The position numbers and the translations under genes were made by a program. Shown one piece after another: positions 10,983 through 14,977 of a DNA stretch of 64,000 nt. How positions within the stretch are numbered: the first letter of the stretch is position 1; each line of letters begins with the position of its first letter. The notes below the pieces were generated by a model, which saw nothing but the letters and a program-made list of their open reading frames with translations, did not search any database and had not been told where the DNA came from. This DNA comes from Jatrophihabitans endophyticus (GTDB lineage Bacteria > Actinomycetota > Actinomycetes > Mycobacteriales > Jatrophihabitantaceae), in assembly GCF_900129455.1 (NCBI RefSeq), contig NZ_FQVU01000005.1:62001-126000 (forward strand). Direction: 5' to 3'.

Positions 10983-11699
10983 ATGAGCCGCGCCAGCCTC
11001 GACAAGCAACCCGTCGAGGTCGCCCGGATGTTCGACGGCGTGGCCCGGCGCTACGACCTGACCAACACCGTGCTGTCCTTCGGCCTCGACCGGCGATGGC
11101 GACGCCGAACCCGGCAGTGCCTCGAGCTCACCGACGGGCAGCGCGTGCTCGACCTTGCCGCCGGGACCGGCGTCTCCACCGTGGAGCTCGCCCGCGGTGG
11201 CGCGCGAGCGATCGCCTGCGACTTCTCGCTGGGCATGCTGCGCGCGGGTCGCGCCCGCGGCGATCGCCGCGACCGCGTGCCCTTCGTCGCCGGCGACGCC
11301 ACCCGGCTGCCCTTCGGCGACGACGCGTTCGACGCCGCCGTCATCAGCTTCGGGCTGCGCAACGTCGTCGACGTGCCGGCGGCGCTGCGCGAGCTGGCCC
11401 GCGTGGTGCGCCCTGGGGGCCGACTGGTCATCTGCGAGTTCAGCCGGCCCACGTGGCGGCCCTTCCGCGTCGTCTACCTGAACTACCTGATGCGCGCGCT
11501 GCCGTGGATCGCCGGCACGGTGTCGTCCAACGGCGAGGCCTACGTCTACCTCGCCGAGTCGATCCGCGCGTGGCCGGCCCAGCAGGAGCTCGCTGCACTC
11601 GTCGCCGGCAACGGCTGGCGCGACGTCCGCTGGCGCAACCAGACCGGCGGCATCGTCAGCCTGCACCTGGCCACGAAAGGCCCCGCCCGTCGCGCGTGA
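10983..11699 (+). CDS. menG: demethylmenaquinone methyltransferase MenG (UbiE family)
   Basis: SAM-dependent C-methyltransferase that converts demethylmenaquinol to menaquinol, the last step of menaquinone synthesis. The 238-residue protein has the SAM-binding motif [16 protein letters not shown], the family segment [25 protein letters not shown] at the N-terminus, and [17 protein letters not shown]. These are diagnostic of UbiE/MenG. The ATG at 10983 gives the normal start. It is transcribed divergently from the phospholipase gene, with 153 bp between the starts. It is the fourth menaquinone gene in the window and supports use of the futalosine route. Confidence 0.93.
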
Positions 11700-11825: not shown

Positions 11826-12086
11826 ATGAGTCTCGACGACGACGACATCCTGACCAGTGACGGCGGCGCGGACGGCGGCGCGGACGGCGGTGCCGACGGT
11901 GGTGCCGACTCCGGTGACGGCGGCGCGGACGGCCCGGCGACGGGCGGCCCCGAGGGCCCGGCCGACAGCGGTGACGGCGGCGCGGACGGCCCGGCGACCG
12001 GCGGCCCCGAGGGCCCGGCCGACAGCGGTGACGGCGGCGCGGACGGCCCGGCGACCGGCGGCCCCGAGGGCCCGGCGGACAGCTGA
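11826..12086 (+). CDS. Asp/Gly/Ala-rich tandem-repeat peptide (possible precursor peptide)
   Basis: An 86-residue acidic peptide. A short leader (MSLDDDDILTSD) is followed by four GGAD units and then three identical 19-residue units, each reading GDGGADGPATGGPEGPADS. It has no hydrophobic core and almost no side-chain variety, so it is unlikely to fold alone. The ATG at 11826 has GAGAGGA six bases upstream, a strong ribosome site. The JmjC-type oxygenase gene starts 2 bases after its stop, and a ferredoxin-like gene follows. That layout resembles a precursor peptide with its modifying enzyme; Asp or Pro hydroxylation would be the natural guess. Function is inferred only. I recall similar DGG-rich peptides beside cupin genes in other actinomycetes. 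Confidence 0.75.
   Translation: MSLDDDDILTSDGGADGGADGGADGGADSGDGGADGPATGGPEGPADSGDGGADGPATGGPEGPADSGDGGADGPATGGPEGPADS
11913..12083 (+). repeat. three 57-bp tandem repeats inside the repeat peptide gene
   Basis: Units at 11913-11969, 11970-12026 and 12027-12083 are each 57 bp and nearly identical at the DNA level; I see a single G/C change (ACG versus ACC) in the first and one GCC to GCG change in the last. They stay in frame and each encodes 19 residues. The near-identity of synonymous positions points to recent duplication or ongoing homogenisation, so copy number probably varies between strains. Just upstream, a 12-bp unit encoding Asp-Gly-Gly-Ala is repeated four times in more diverged form. 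Confidence 0.9.
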
Positions 12087-12088
12087 GC

Positions 12089-13336
12089 GTGGCCCACGCC
12101 ATCGAGGCGACCGGCGGTGCGGGGGGCGCTGCGCTCACGCGCTGCGTCTCCTGCACCGCCGATGTCTTCGCCCGCGAGTACTGGGGCCGCGCCCCGCTGC
12201 TCAGTCGTGCCGCCGAACTGCGCGGTAGCTTCACCGACCTGCTCGACACCGCCGCGGTCGACGAGCTGGTGTCCGAGCGCGGTCTGCGCACCCCCTTCCT
12301 GCGCATGGCCAAGGAAGGCGCCGTCCTCAACGCCGGGACGTTCACTCGCGGCGGCGGGGCCGGTGCGACCGTCACCGACCTGGCTGCCGACGACAAGGTG
12401 CTCGCCCAGCTCGGCGACGGCGCGACCCTCGTCCTGCAGGCGCTGCACCGCAGCTGGCCGCCGCTGGTCGAGTTCGGCTCGCGGCTGGCTGACGAGCTCG
12501 GTCACCCCGTCCAGGTCAACGCCTACGTCACCCCGCCGCAGAACCAGGGTTTCGCGGCCCACTACGACGTCCACGACGTCTTCGTGCTCCAGGTGTCCGG
12601 CCGCAAGAAGTGGACGATCCACGCGCCGGTCGTCGACTCGCCGCTGGACAACCAGCCCTGGGACAAGCGCAAGGACGCCGTCGCCGCGCGCACGGCCGAC
12701 GAGCCGGTGATCGACACGGTGATCGAGCCGGGCGACGCGCTCTACCTCCCGCGCGGCACGATCCACTCGGCGGCTGCGCTCGGCGAGACCTCGATCCACC
12801 TCACCGTGGGCGTGCACCCGCTGACCCGCTACCACCTCGTCAAGCACCTGCTCGCCGCCGTCCAGGAGGATCCGGCGCTGCGGACGTCGCTGCCCGTCGG
12901 CGTCGACCTCGCCGACCCCGACGTCCTCGCCGACGAGCTGAGCGCGACGCTCGCGGCCCTGCATCGCGCGCTCGACGCGCAACCCGTGGCCGCGGCCGCC
13001 GAGCACGTCGGCACGAACCTGATGCAACGCACCCGCCCCGAGGCCCTCGCTCCGTTGGCGCAGCTGACGGCCGCGGCGTCGCTCACCGCCGCCACGCCGG
13101 TACGGCGGCGGGCGGGGCTGCGGATCCGGGTCCGGCGCGACGCCGACGGCGCGACCGCCCTCGTCCTGCTCGACCGCACGGTCACGGTCCCGGCGGCCGC
13201 CGCCGACGCGGTGAAGACCGTCCTGACCGGTGCGGCGTTCACCCCGGCCGAGCTGCCCGGACTCGACGACGACGGCCGGCTCGCGCTCGTCCGCCGGTTG
13301 CTGCGCGACGGCGTTCTCGTTCCGGCGGGCAGCTGA
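12089..13336 (+). CDS. JmjC/cupin-like Fe(II)/2-oxoglutarate oxygenase
   Basis: A 415-residue protein of the cupin_4/JmjC family that includes bacterial ribosomal-protein hydroxylases such as YcfD/RoxA. The Fe(II) facial triad is visible: HYD (H158, D160) in QGFAAHYDVHDVFVLQ and H226 in LPRGTIHSA. The Lys pair in SGRKKWTIH is placed for 2-oxoglutarate binding. The N-terminus has the usual YWGRAPLL. After residue ~245 comes a helical dimerisation region and a C-terminal winged-helix-like segment. The GTG at 12089 is 2 bases after the repeat-peptide stop. Context suggests that the peptide is its substrate, but a ribosomal protein cannot be excluded. Confidence 0.85.
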   Translation: MAHAIEATGGAGGAALTRCVSCTADVFAREYWGRAPLLSRAAELRGSFTDLLDTAAVDELVSERGLRTPFLRMAKEGAVLNAGTFTRGGGAGATVTDLAADDKVLAQLGDGATLVLQALHRSWPPLVEFGSRLADELGHPVQVNAYVTPPQNQGFAAHYDVHDVFVLQVSGRKKWTIHAPVVDSPLDNQPWDKRKDAVAARTADEPVIDTVIEPGDALYLPRGTIHSAAALGETSIHLTVGVHPLTRYHLVKHLLAAVQEDPALRTSLPVGVDLADPDVLADELSATLAALHRALDAQPVAAAAEHVGTNLMQRTRPEALAPLAQLTAAASLTAATPVRRRAGLRIRVRRDADGATALVLLDRTVTVPAAAADAVKTVLTGAAFTPAELPGLDDDGRLALVRRLLRDGVLVPAGS

Positions 13337-13349
13337 CACACTGACCGTC

Positions 13350-14306
13350 GTGAACCCGCGGGACCATCACCCGCCGCGGCCTCGCGAGACCCCGGACCGG
13401 TGCGCGCTGCGCTCGCAGCTGCGCGACGACCCGATGATCGGCACGGCGTTCCCGGCGGCGCGGCTGCTGCTCGTCGAGCAGCCCGGGCCGTGGGGGCGGC
13501 AGGGCCTCGCCGACTCCCACTTCGACCGATCCGTCGCGGCGCAGCTGCAGGCACGGCTCGGGCGGTCGGGGGTCCGCGTGCAGGCCATCCGTCGCCCCGG
13601 CCGCACGCCGGTGGGCACGGTGCGCCGCTGGGCCGTCGTCGACACCCGCGACGAACACGAGTCGCTGTGGTGGGGCAGCTACGTCCACGACGCGGAGCTG
13701 CTCGAGCTCGACCCCGACGACCCGGCCGGCGCCGGCGGTGTCGCCGACGACGATCCGGTCTACCTCGTCTGCGCCCACAGCCGCCACGACGCGTGCTGCG
13801 CCCTGCGGGGCCGGCCGGTGGCGGCGGCGTTCGAGGCGCTGCGTCCCGGCCGGGTGTGGGAGAGCAGCCACCTGGGCGGCGACCGCTTCGCCGCGAACGT
13901 GCTCGTCCTGCCGCTCGGCCTGCAGTACGGCCGGGTGCTGCCGTTCGCGGCGGCCGAGTTCGTCGCGGCGGCCGAGGCCGGCGAGGTCATCGGTGCCCTG
14001 CTGCGGGGACGCATCGGACTGCCGCCGGCGGGGCAAACGGCGCTCGCCCACGCCCACGAGGAACTCGCGCTGCGCCGCCGCCGCGACCTGCAGGTGATCC
14101 ACGTGCCGGCACCGGTCGACGGCGTCGCGGTCGTGCGGCTGCGCAGTCCGCGCGGCGACGTGGACGTCACCGTCCGCGTCGAGGTCGTCGAGGCGACCGG
14201 GCTGACGTGCAGCAACCCACGGCCGAGCAGCTTCGCCGGCTACCGGCCCGTCGCCATCGACCCCGTCCCGGGCCGGCCGGCCGAGCTGGTCGAGCGGGAC
14301 TCGTAA
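13350..14306 (+). CDS. sucrase/ferredoxin-like protein (thioredoxin-like [2Fe-2S])
   Basis: A 318-residue member of the Suc_Fer-like family. The signature is VCAHSRHDACCALRGRPVA, which supplies cysteines for a thioredoxin-like [2Fe-2S] ferredoxin fold, followed by ESSHLGGDRFAANVLVLP. An earlier cysteine lies in RCALRSQLRDDPMIGTA near the N-terminus. The GTG at 13350 is 13 bp after the JmjC gene stop, so the three genes are probably one operon. A low-potential iron-sulfur protein could supply electrons to reactivate the iron oxygenase; this role is inferred. It converges with ppa, with 11 bp between stops. Confidence 0.85.
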   Translation: MNPRDHHPPRPRETPDRCALRSQLRDDPMIGTAFPAARLLLVEQPGPWGRQGLADSHFDRSVAAQLQARLGRSGVRVQAIRRPGRTPVGTVRRWAVVDTRDEHESLWWGSYVHDAELLELDPDDPAGAGGVADDDPVYLVCAHSRHDACCALRGRPVAAAFEALRPGRVWESSHLGGDRFAANVLVLPLGLQYGRVLPFAAAEFVAAAEAGEVIGALLRGRIGLPPAGQTALAHAHEELALRRRRDLQVIHVPAPVDGVAVVRLRSPRGDVDVTVRVEVVEATGLTCSNPRPSSFAGYRPVAIDPVPGRPAELVERDS

Positions 14307-14317
14307 CCGGCCGGGGC

Positions 14318-14878
14318 CTACTGCTCGCGGCGGTTCTCGACCGGGGTCTGGTCGTCGGAGTCGGACACCTCGGCCTCGTGGGCGTCCTCGTGCGGCGACT
14401 CGGCCAGCCGCGTGCGGGAACGGTCGATCTCGGCCTCGGCCTCGCGACGGTTCACCCAGTTGGCGCCCTCGACGCTCTTGCCCGGCTCCAGCTCCTTGTA
14501 GACCTCGAAGAAGTGCTGGATCTCGAGACGGTCGAACTCCGGGAGGTGGTGGATGTCGCGCAGGTGCTCCAGGCGCGGGTCCGCGGTGGGGACGGCGAGC
14601 ACCTTGTCGTCGCCGCCCTTCTCGTCGGTCATGCGGAACATGCCGATCGCCCGGCAGCGGACGAGGACGCCCGGGAACAGCGGGTCCCCGTGCACGAGCA
14701 CCAGCGCGTCCAGCGGATCGCCGTCCTCGCCGAGCGTGTCCTCGATGAAGCCGTAGTCGGCCGGGTACTGGGTCGAGGTGAACAGCGTCCGGTCGAGGCG
14801 CATGCGGCCGGTCTCGTGGTCGACCTCGTACTTGTTGCGGCTGCCACGGGGGATCTCGATGAGGACGTCGAACTCCAC
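14318..14878 (-). CDS. ppa: inorganic pyrophosphatase
   Basis: Soluble type I pyrophosphatase; hydrolyses PPi released by biosynthesis. The 186-residue protein begins [20 protein letters not shown], carries the metal-binding signature around [21 protein letters not shown] (D residues), and has the family's [12 protein letters not shown] segment. The GTG at 14878 is preceded by AAGGAG at a good distance and gives the standard mature N-terminus. The last ~25 residues form an acidic tail ([16 protein letters not shown]) longer than in many orthologues. Divergent from dacB; 99 bp separate the starts and must hold both promoters. Confidence 0.95.
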
Positions 14879-14977
14879 TGCTGTACTCCTTCGGCACGGG
14901 CGGGTCGGGGCCGGTCGGGCTGACGGCGGGACGACGTCGGGCCGCCACGCTGGCCGCTGACGCCGGGTCACCGCCTA

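Follow-up and report, generated by a model that had tools for sequence, protein, structure and literature searches.

Genomic evidence for a candidate peptide-modification system pairing an Asp-repeat peptide with a ribosomal oxygenase-type JmjC protein in Actinomycetota

Introduction

The ribosomal oxygenases (ROX) NO66/RIOX1, MINA53/RIOX2 and YcfD/RoxA are proteins of the family PF08007 with an Fe(II)-binding HxD...H triad, and their known substrates are the ribosomal proteins L8/L27a/L16. The carbon hydroxylated by NO66/MINA53 and YcfD is C-3, in His and Arg residues, and FIH, a related enzyme, oxidises Asp as well at this carbon; a selectivity for His has been described for NO66 and MINA53 (PMC9994133). 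JmjC hydroxylases are already known in principle in RiPP pathways. In the case of the biphenomycin-type RiPPs, the JmjC or cupin-like enzymes BipG/BpmG and PbsQ hydroxylate a residue of the precursor peptide (PMC12707348, PMC12257519), BipG being a JmjC ornithine hydroxylase (PMC12707348). Besides, fusions of an RRE-like domain with a PF08007 JmjC protein have been described, with bacterial homologues found in RiPP-like neighbourhoods (Bregman et al., 2025, PMC12710340).

We have analyzed a stretch of 64,000 nucleotides of the actinomycete Jatrophihabitans endophyticus (contig NZ_FQVU01000005.1, positions 62,001 to 126,000; hereafter the window), in which a gene for an Asp/Gly/Ala repeat peptide is followed by those of a JmjC protein and of a sucrase/ferredoxin-like protein (Suc_Fer). 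The JmjC protein has in common with the ROX the family, the triad and the full-length fold, but the known ROX act on ribosomal proteins, and what accompanies the JmjC gene here is an Asp-repeat peptide. Like in the case of BipG/BpmG and PbsQ, the reaction proposed here would be the hydroxylation of precursor-peptide residues; however, those enzymes belong to large clusters, where they account for a single tailoring step at a residue derived from Arg, whereas here no obvious modifying enzyme other than the JmjC protein is present and the peptide consists of a long Asp repeat. The RRE-JmjC fusions resemble the window enzyme in the joining of an RRE-like part to PF08007, and the passages on them mention neither a family of precursors nor Asp repeats, a Suc_Fer gene or a distribution (PMC12710340). 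A search of mainly open-access literature returned no description of the DGGADGG peptide, of its gene pairing or of the pairing with a sucrase-ferredoxin gene. The system is apparently uncharacterised so far.

Results and Discussion

The locus

The three genes lie on the + strand of the window. The proposed precursor, of 86 amino acids (11826..12086), starts with ATG preceded by AGAGGA and consists of a leader, MSLDDDDILTS (11826..11858), DGGADGG units and then three units of 19 amino acids (SGDGGADGPATGGPEGPAD), whose 57-nt copies vary at synonymous sites only. Only 2 bp separate its stop from the GTG start of the JmjC/cupin-4 Fe(II)/2-oxoglutarate oxygenase, of ribosomal-oxygenase type and 415 amino acids (12089..13336), and 13 bp more lead to the GTG of the Suc_Fer gene (13350..14306, 318 amino acids, thioredoxin-like ferredoxin), as the initial annotation of this stretch had laid them out. 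Upstream of the trio is menG (10983-11699, + strand) and downstream, convergent, ppa (14318-14971, - strand). The nearest named relative of the JmjC protein, 70% identical, is found in a Jatrophihabitans MAG (L003). DNA coding for DGGADGGA occurs at a single site of the 4.48-Mb genome, that of the peptide gene. The window peptide had no Pfam or NCBIfam match and, although the three-gene module is conserved, NCBIfam contains no curated model for this peptide, four of its relatives or the JmjC subfamily. A defence system was discarded, there being no PADLOC match.

Linkage across the Actinomycetota

JmjC homologues were gathered at three levels, from 12 named genomes, from 200 of the order and from 396 of the phylum, and their surroundings were read. 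The orthologous clade comprised 106 loci once recognised duplicates were removed, or 104 when the two without readable upstream DNA (L079 and L127) are set aside. An Asp-repeat ORF was located directly upstream of the JmjC gene in 103 of these 104 (in L004, L017 and L085 it was assigned by eye), and this was the outcome of the gene-neighbourhood survey that the initial annotation had proposed. The gap between both genes had a median of 9 bp, and 98 of the 99 measured were within 100 bp. A Suc_Fer gene followed on the same strand in about 84 of the 106 loci. In the exception, L115 (G334), an Asp/Glu/Gln-rich ORF without repeats overlaps the JmjC gene by 4 bp and no Suc_Fer gene adjoins; it is possibly a degenerating or diverged case. 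At least three clades of Actinomycetota have the three genes together, and environmental mycobacteria, Micromonospora and the Jatrophihabitans group are among their carriers.

The flanking genes vary between families while the trio persists. Specifically, the trio has menG and ppa beside it only in the family of the window and, differently oriented, in family f9, which rules out the synteny of housekeeping genes as the cause of the linkage. The same association appears when whole genomes are compared. DNA coding for DGGADG[x]AD/E was found in 86 of the 200 genomes of the order, 84 of which carry the JmjC gene (Fisher p about 1e-22, a value that ignores kinship), and the two matches among the 76 JmjC-negative genomes were both in unrelated reading frames, i.e., they were not peptide genes. 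The shorter 17-nt DGGADG pattern was uninformative, being present in 195 of the 200. The search of plasmids returned paralogues only. The linkage between peptide and JmjC protein is real and phylum-wide.

The repeat peptide is under purifying selection

Three species of Mycobacterium/Mycolicibacterium have an identical peptide of 81 amino acids, and their genes differ pairwise by 18, 20 and 28 nucleotides, all of them at the third codon position; the peptide is therefore not a product of chance. Over 17 close pairs, which are partly non-independent, the differences at codon positions 1, 2 and 3 were 63, 46 and 416. AGGAG-like (Shine-Dalgarno-like) sites precede several of the peptide starts and, together with the changes restricted to third positions, rule out an artefact of GC-rich DNA. 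From the comparison of these sequences we conclude that the repeat peptide is a real gene under purifying selection. A candidate precursor encoded together with its candidate modifying enzyme, as would be expected of a RiPP, is what nearly all the readable loci present.

One peptide is unusually long. In Micromonospora pattaloongensis (L004/L057) it exceeds 200 amino acids and has, beside the usual units, an extra array of GVERGADAGAD-type repeats.

The oxygenase and its ferredoxin-like neighbour

The JmjC protein matches PF08007 (E 4.5e-29) and, among characterized proteins, NO66 (E 6.7e-21), MINA53 and, more weakly, YcfD. The triad that had been read as intact could be located at H158, D160 and H226, and K173 is presumably the lysine that binds 2-oxoglutarate. 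H158, K173 and H226 are invariant in the 106 orthologues, and D160 is found in 105. For modelling we used read-through fusions, i.e., loci in which peptide and JmjC protein are in the same frame, with the peptide stop read as a residue. In the AlphaFold2 model of one of them, L018, whose JmjC protein is 67% identical to that of the window, residues 91-494 align with NO66 (Z 27.9, rmsd 4.4 A over 384 residues), and the match to NO66/MINA53/YcfD (Z 19-28) takes in the C-terminal part. Judging from this orthologue model, the window protein has the ROX architecture of a JmjC plus a C-terminal domain.

The Suc_Fer protein matches PF06999 (E 7.8e-18), and C18, C141, C149, C150, H174 and C287 are conserved among 94 homologues; no sequence match was found in the PDB. 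It has in common with the thioredoxin-like ferredoxins Apd1/Aim32 the family, the CX8C and the first His. However, the published cluster motif, CX8CXnHX3H (PMC8482512), is kept in part only: C141-X8-C150 and H174 are there, but the second His is replaced by Asp178 in 85 of the 94 homologues, and a [2Fe-2S] cluster, if there is one, may use ligands other than those of Apd1/Aim32. At the sensitivity used, no homologue was detected genome-wide in Micromonospora-like genomes and in G067, both of which keep the peptide and the JmjC gene, and in several genomes of family f9 the gene is located several kilobases downstream, beyond inserted genes. The role of Suc_Fer, uncertain from these sequences, would thus be accessory, and the suggestion in the initial annotation that it supports the iron enzyme keeps a weak claim, given the genomes that lack the gene and the substituted His. 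In three of the f9 loci (L144, L145 and L146) the intervening stretch measures about 7-8 kb, and its unrelated genes, which vary from one genome to another, include ABC transporter and menaquinone genes.

Candidate target residue

We defined the core as the last 45 residues of each peptide (n = 96). Ala, Asp and Gly were the sole residues common to all 96 cores, and Cys appeared in none. The core motif differs by lineage (DGGADGG, GDADQGDS, DGTDAD); Asp mostly precedes Gly, Ala or Ser, with 4 as its most frequent spacing. Asp is then the only reactive side chain in every one of these core sequences, and for this reason we propose it as the target. The initial annotation had considered Asp or Pro hydroxylation. 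The former is supported, but Pro is absent from 25 of the 96 cores, which rules it out as the general target, and His hydroxylation of the NO66 type is ruled out as the general reaction in the same way (His is missing in 38, including that of the window). A specificity for Asp would be a change with respect to the selectivity of NO66 and MINA53 for His.

Leader and predicted docking

The motif [DE][DE]D[IM]x(1-3)[TSV] marks the leader. By the strict pattern, [DE][DE]D[IM] followed by Thr, Ser or Val, it was found in 81 of 99 peptides, and several more have a looser form; it is absent from about 13-15 loci, mainly of one subclade. A conserved leader followed by a variable core is, as far as sequences tell, what a precursor peptide looks like. 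In the AlphaFold2 models of fusions L018 and L132 (about 33% identical and from distant lineages, although their alignments share rows) the leader had a mean pLDDT of about 85, while the repeats were disordered, with pLDDT <50. The models place a strand just after the acidic motif (residues 9-12 and 13-16). As DSSP assigns a strand only where there is a pairing partner, the leader presumably extends a sheet of the JmjC protein. The C-terminal part of the enzyme shows a strand-then-helix pattern that resembles an RRE.

A probable mechanism and its alternatives

That the peptide is the substrate of the JmjC protein, as originally proposed, is well supported by genomics, i.e., by the near-universal linkage, the co-occurrence and the conserved leader, and agrees with the predicted docking. 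In the mechanism that we consider probable, the trio would be a minimal peptide-modification operon for leader-guided hydroxylation of a RiPP-like peptide. The repeat peptide would carry at its N-terminus a leader for recognition ([DE][DE]D[IM]xT), and this leader would dock on the JmjC protein as a beta strand, most likely at the C-terminal winged-helix/RRE-like part of the enzyme. The disordered Asp repeats would then pass through the active site with its Fe(II) and 2-oxoglutarate. Many Asp residues may be hydroxylated in this way at C-3, giving 3-hydroxyaspartate, the simplest product that we infer from the action of the ROX relatives and FIH at that carbon. Suc_Fer would be an accessory redox partner, dispensable in some lineages. 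The conserved trio includes no protease, and the neighbours in the window are not conserved across families. The trio has no exporter either, and the peptide has no obvious signal peptide, which suggests that the product is intracellular, polyanionic and possibly metal-binding. A wider reading, which we hold to be rather unlikely, is that of an ancient and vertically maintained system of Actinomycetota that makes an intracellular poly(3-hydroxyaspartyl) peptide, with a lone ROX-type JmjC protein defining a RiPP-like class; the polymer would bind or buffer a metal (iron or calcium) and the ferredoxin-like protein would control the redox state of the bound iron.

Other explanations of the linkage have to be weighed. 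The full-length fold match to NO66/MINA53/YcfD, all with ribosomal proteins as known substrates, would fit an ordinary ribosomal oxygenase with a ribosomal protein as its substrate, the acidic peptide having a regulatory role or travelling along as a small protein without relation to it. We find this quite improbable, because the linkage is near-universal in the phylum over changing flanks, the pattern-positive peptide genes are found only in JmjC-positive genomes, the leader is predicted to dock on the enzyme and a similar leader is present on quite different short Asp/Asn peptides beside paralogues. The peptide could also be an Asp-rich metallochaperone, itself unmodified, that supplies iron to the JmjC protein and Suc_Fer. 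It is dense in carboxylates, keeps its Asp content while the motif changes, and both its partners belong to iron-binding families. However, a conserved N-terminal motif docked on the enzyme, as the models predict, is the usual arrangement of a precursor leader, and 2OG oxygenases elsewhere are not known to depend on a metal peptide of their own; we regard this role as very doubtful.

The remaining alternative accepts the peptide as substrate and changes the chemistry to desaturation, crosslinking or the oxidation of Ala or Gly, both also universal in the cores. The 2OG oxygenases are not limited to hydroxylation, and macrocyclisation by such an enzyme in RiPPs was reportedly recorded by Xia et al. 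in 2025. Nevertheless, the ROX-type relatives hydroxylate C-3 and the cores offer no second conserved residue as a crosslinking partner, so that a different reaction seems to us hardly probable. If the peptide is indeed the substrate, enzymes of the ribosomal-oxygenase type would have a further role, in which they mature repeat peptides by themselves. The system would also be a simple and directly testable source of multi-hydroxyaspartate polymers, and would allow the specificity of the enzyme (His or Arg versus Asp) to be approached from the sequence motif.

Phylogeny of the JmjC proteins and paralogues with other peptides

In a FastTree tree of 119 rows, where some deep branches are weak and the program warns of long branches, the peptide type tracks the JmjC phylogeny with six label changes, the minimum possible. 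By peptide type there were 76 DGG, 11 GDADQ and 15 DxD rows; those of the DxD type (DGTDADG, DGDASDADA and similar) come from distant parts of the phylum and group with a support of 99. Had peptide-less JmjC homologues grouped with that of the window, the substrate proposal of the initial annotation would have been contradicted. Instead, they were distant, long-branch paralogues outside the DGG, GDADQ and DxD groups, a few of them attached between groups at weakly supported points.

Some paralogues have peptides of their own. A peptide of 48 amino acids with IADNDPSDP repeats precedes the paralogous JmjC genes of L151 (3757-3903, on a Streptomyces clavuligerus plasmid, for the peptide) and L090, and its leader (SLEPDEIEV / SLGADDVEV) resembles SLDDDDILT. 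This enzyme superfamily thus apparently has another family of precursors, the second. In another group (L093, L095, L097 and L099, family f14), with Suc_Fer downstream, the short ORFs upstream end in AVDRGKANGAxADNDGND and are possibly a third precursor type.
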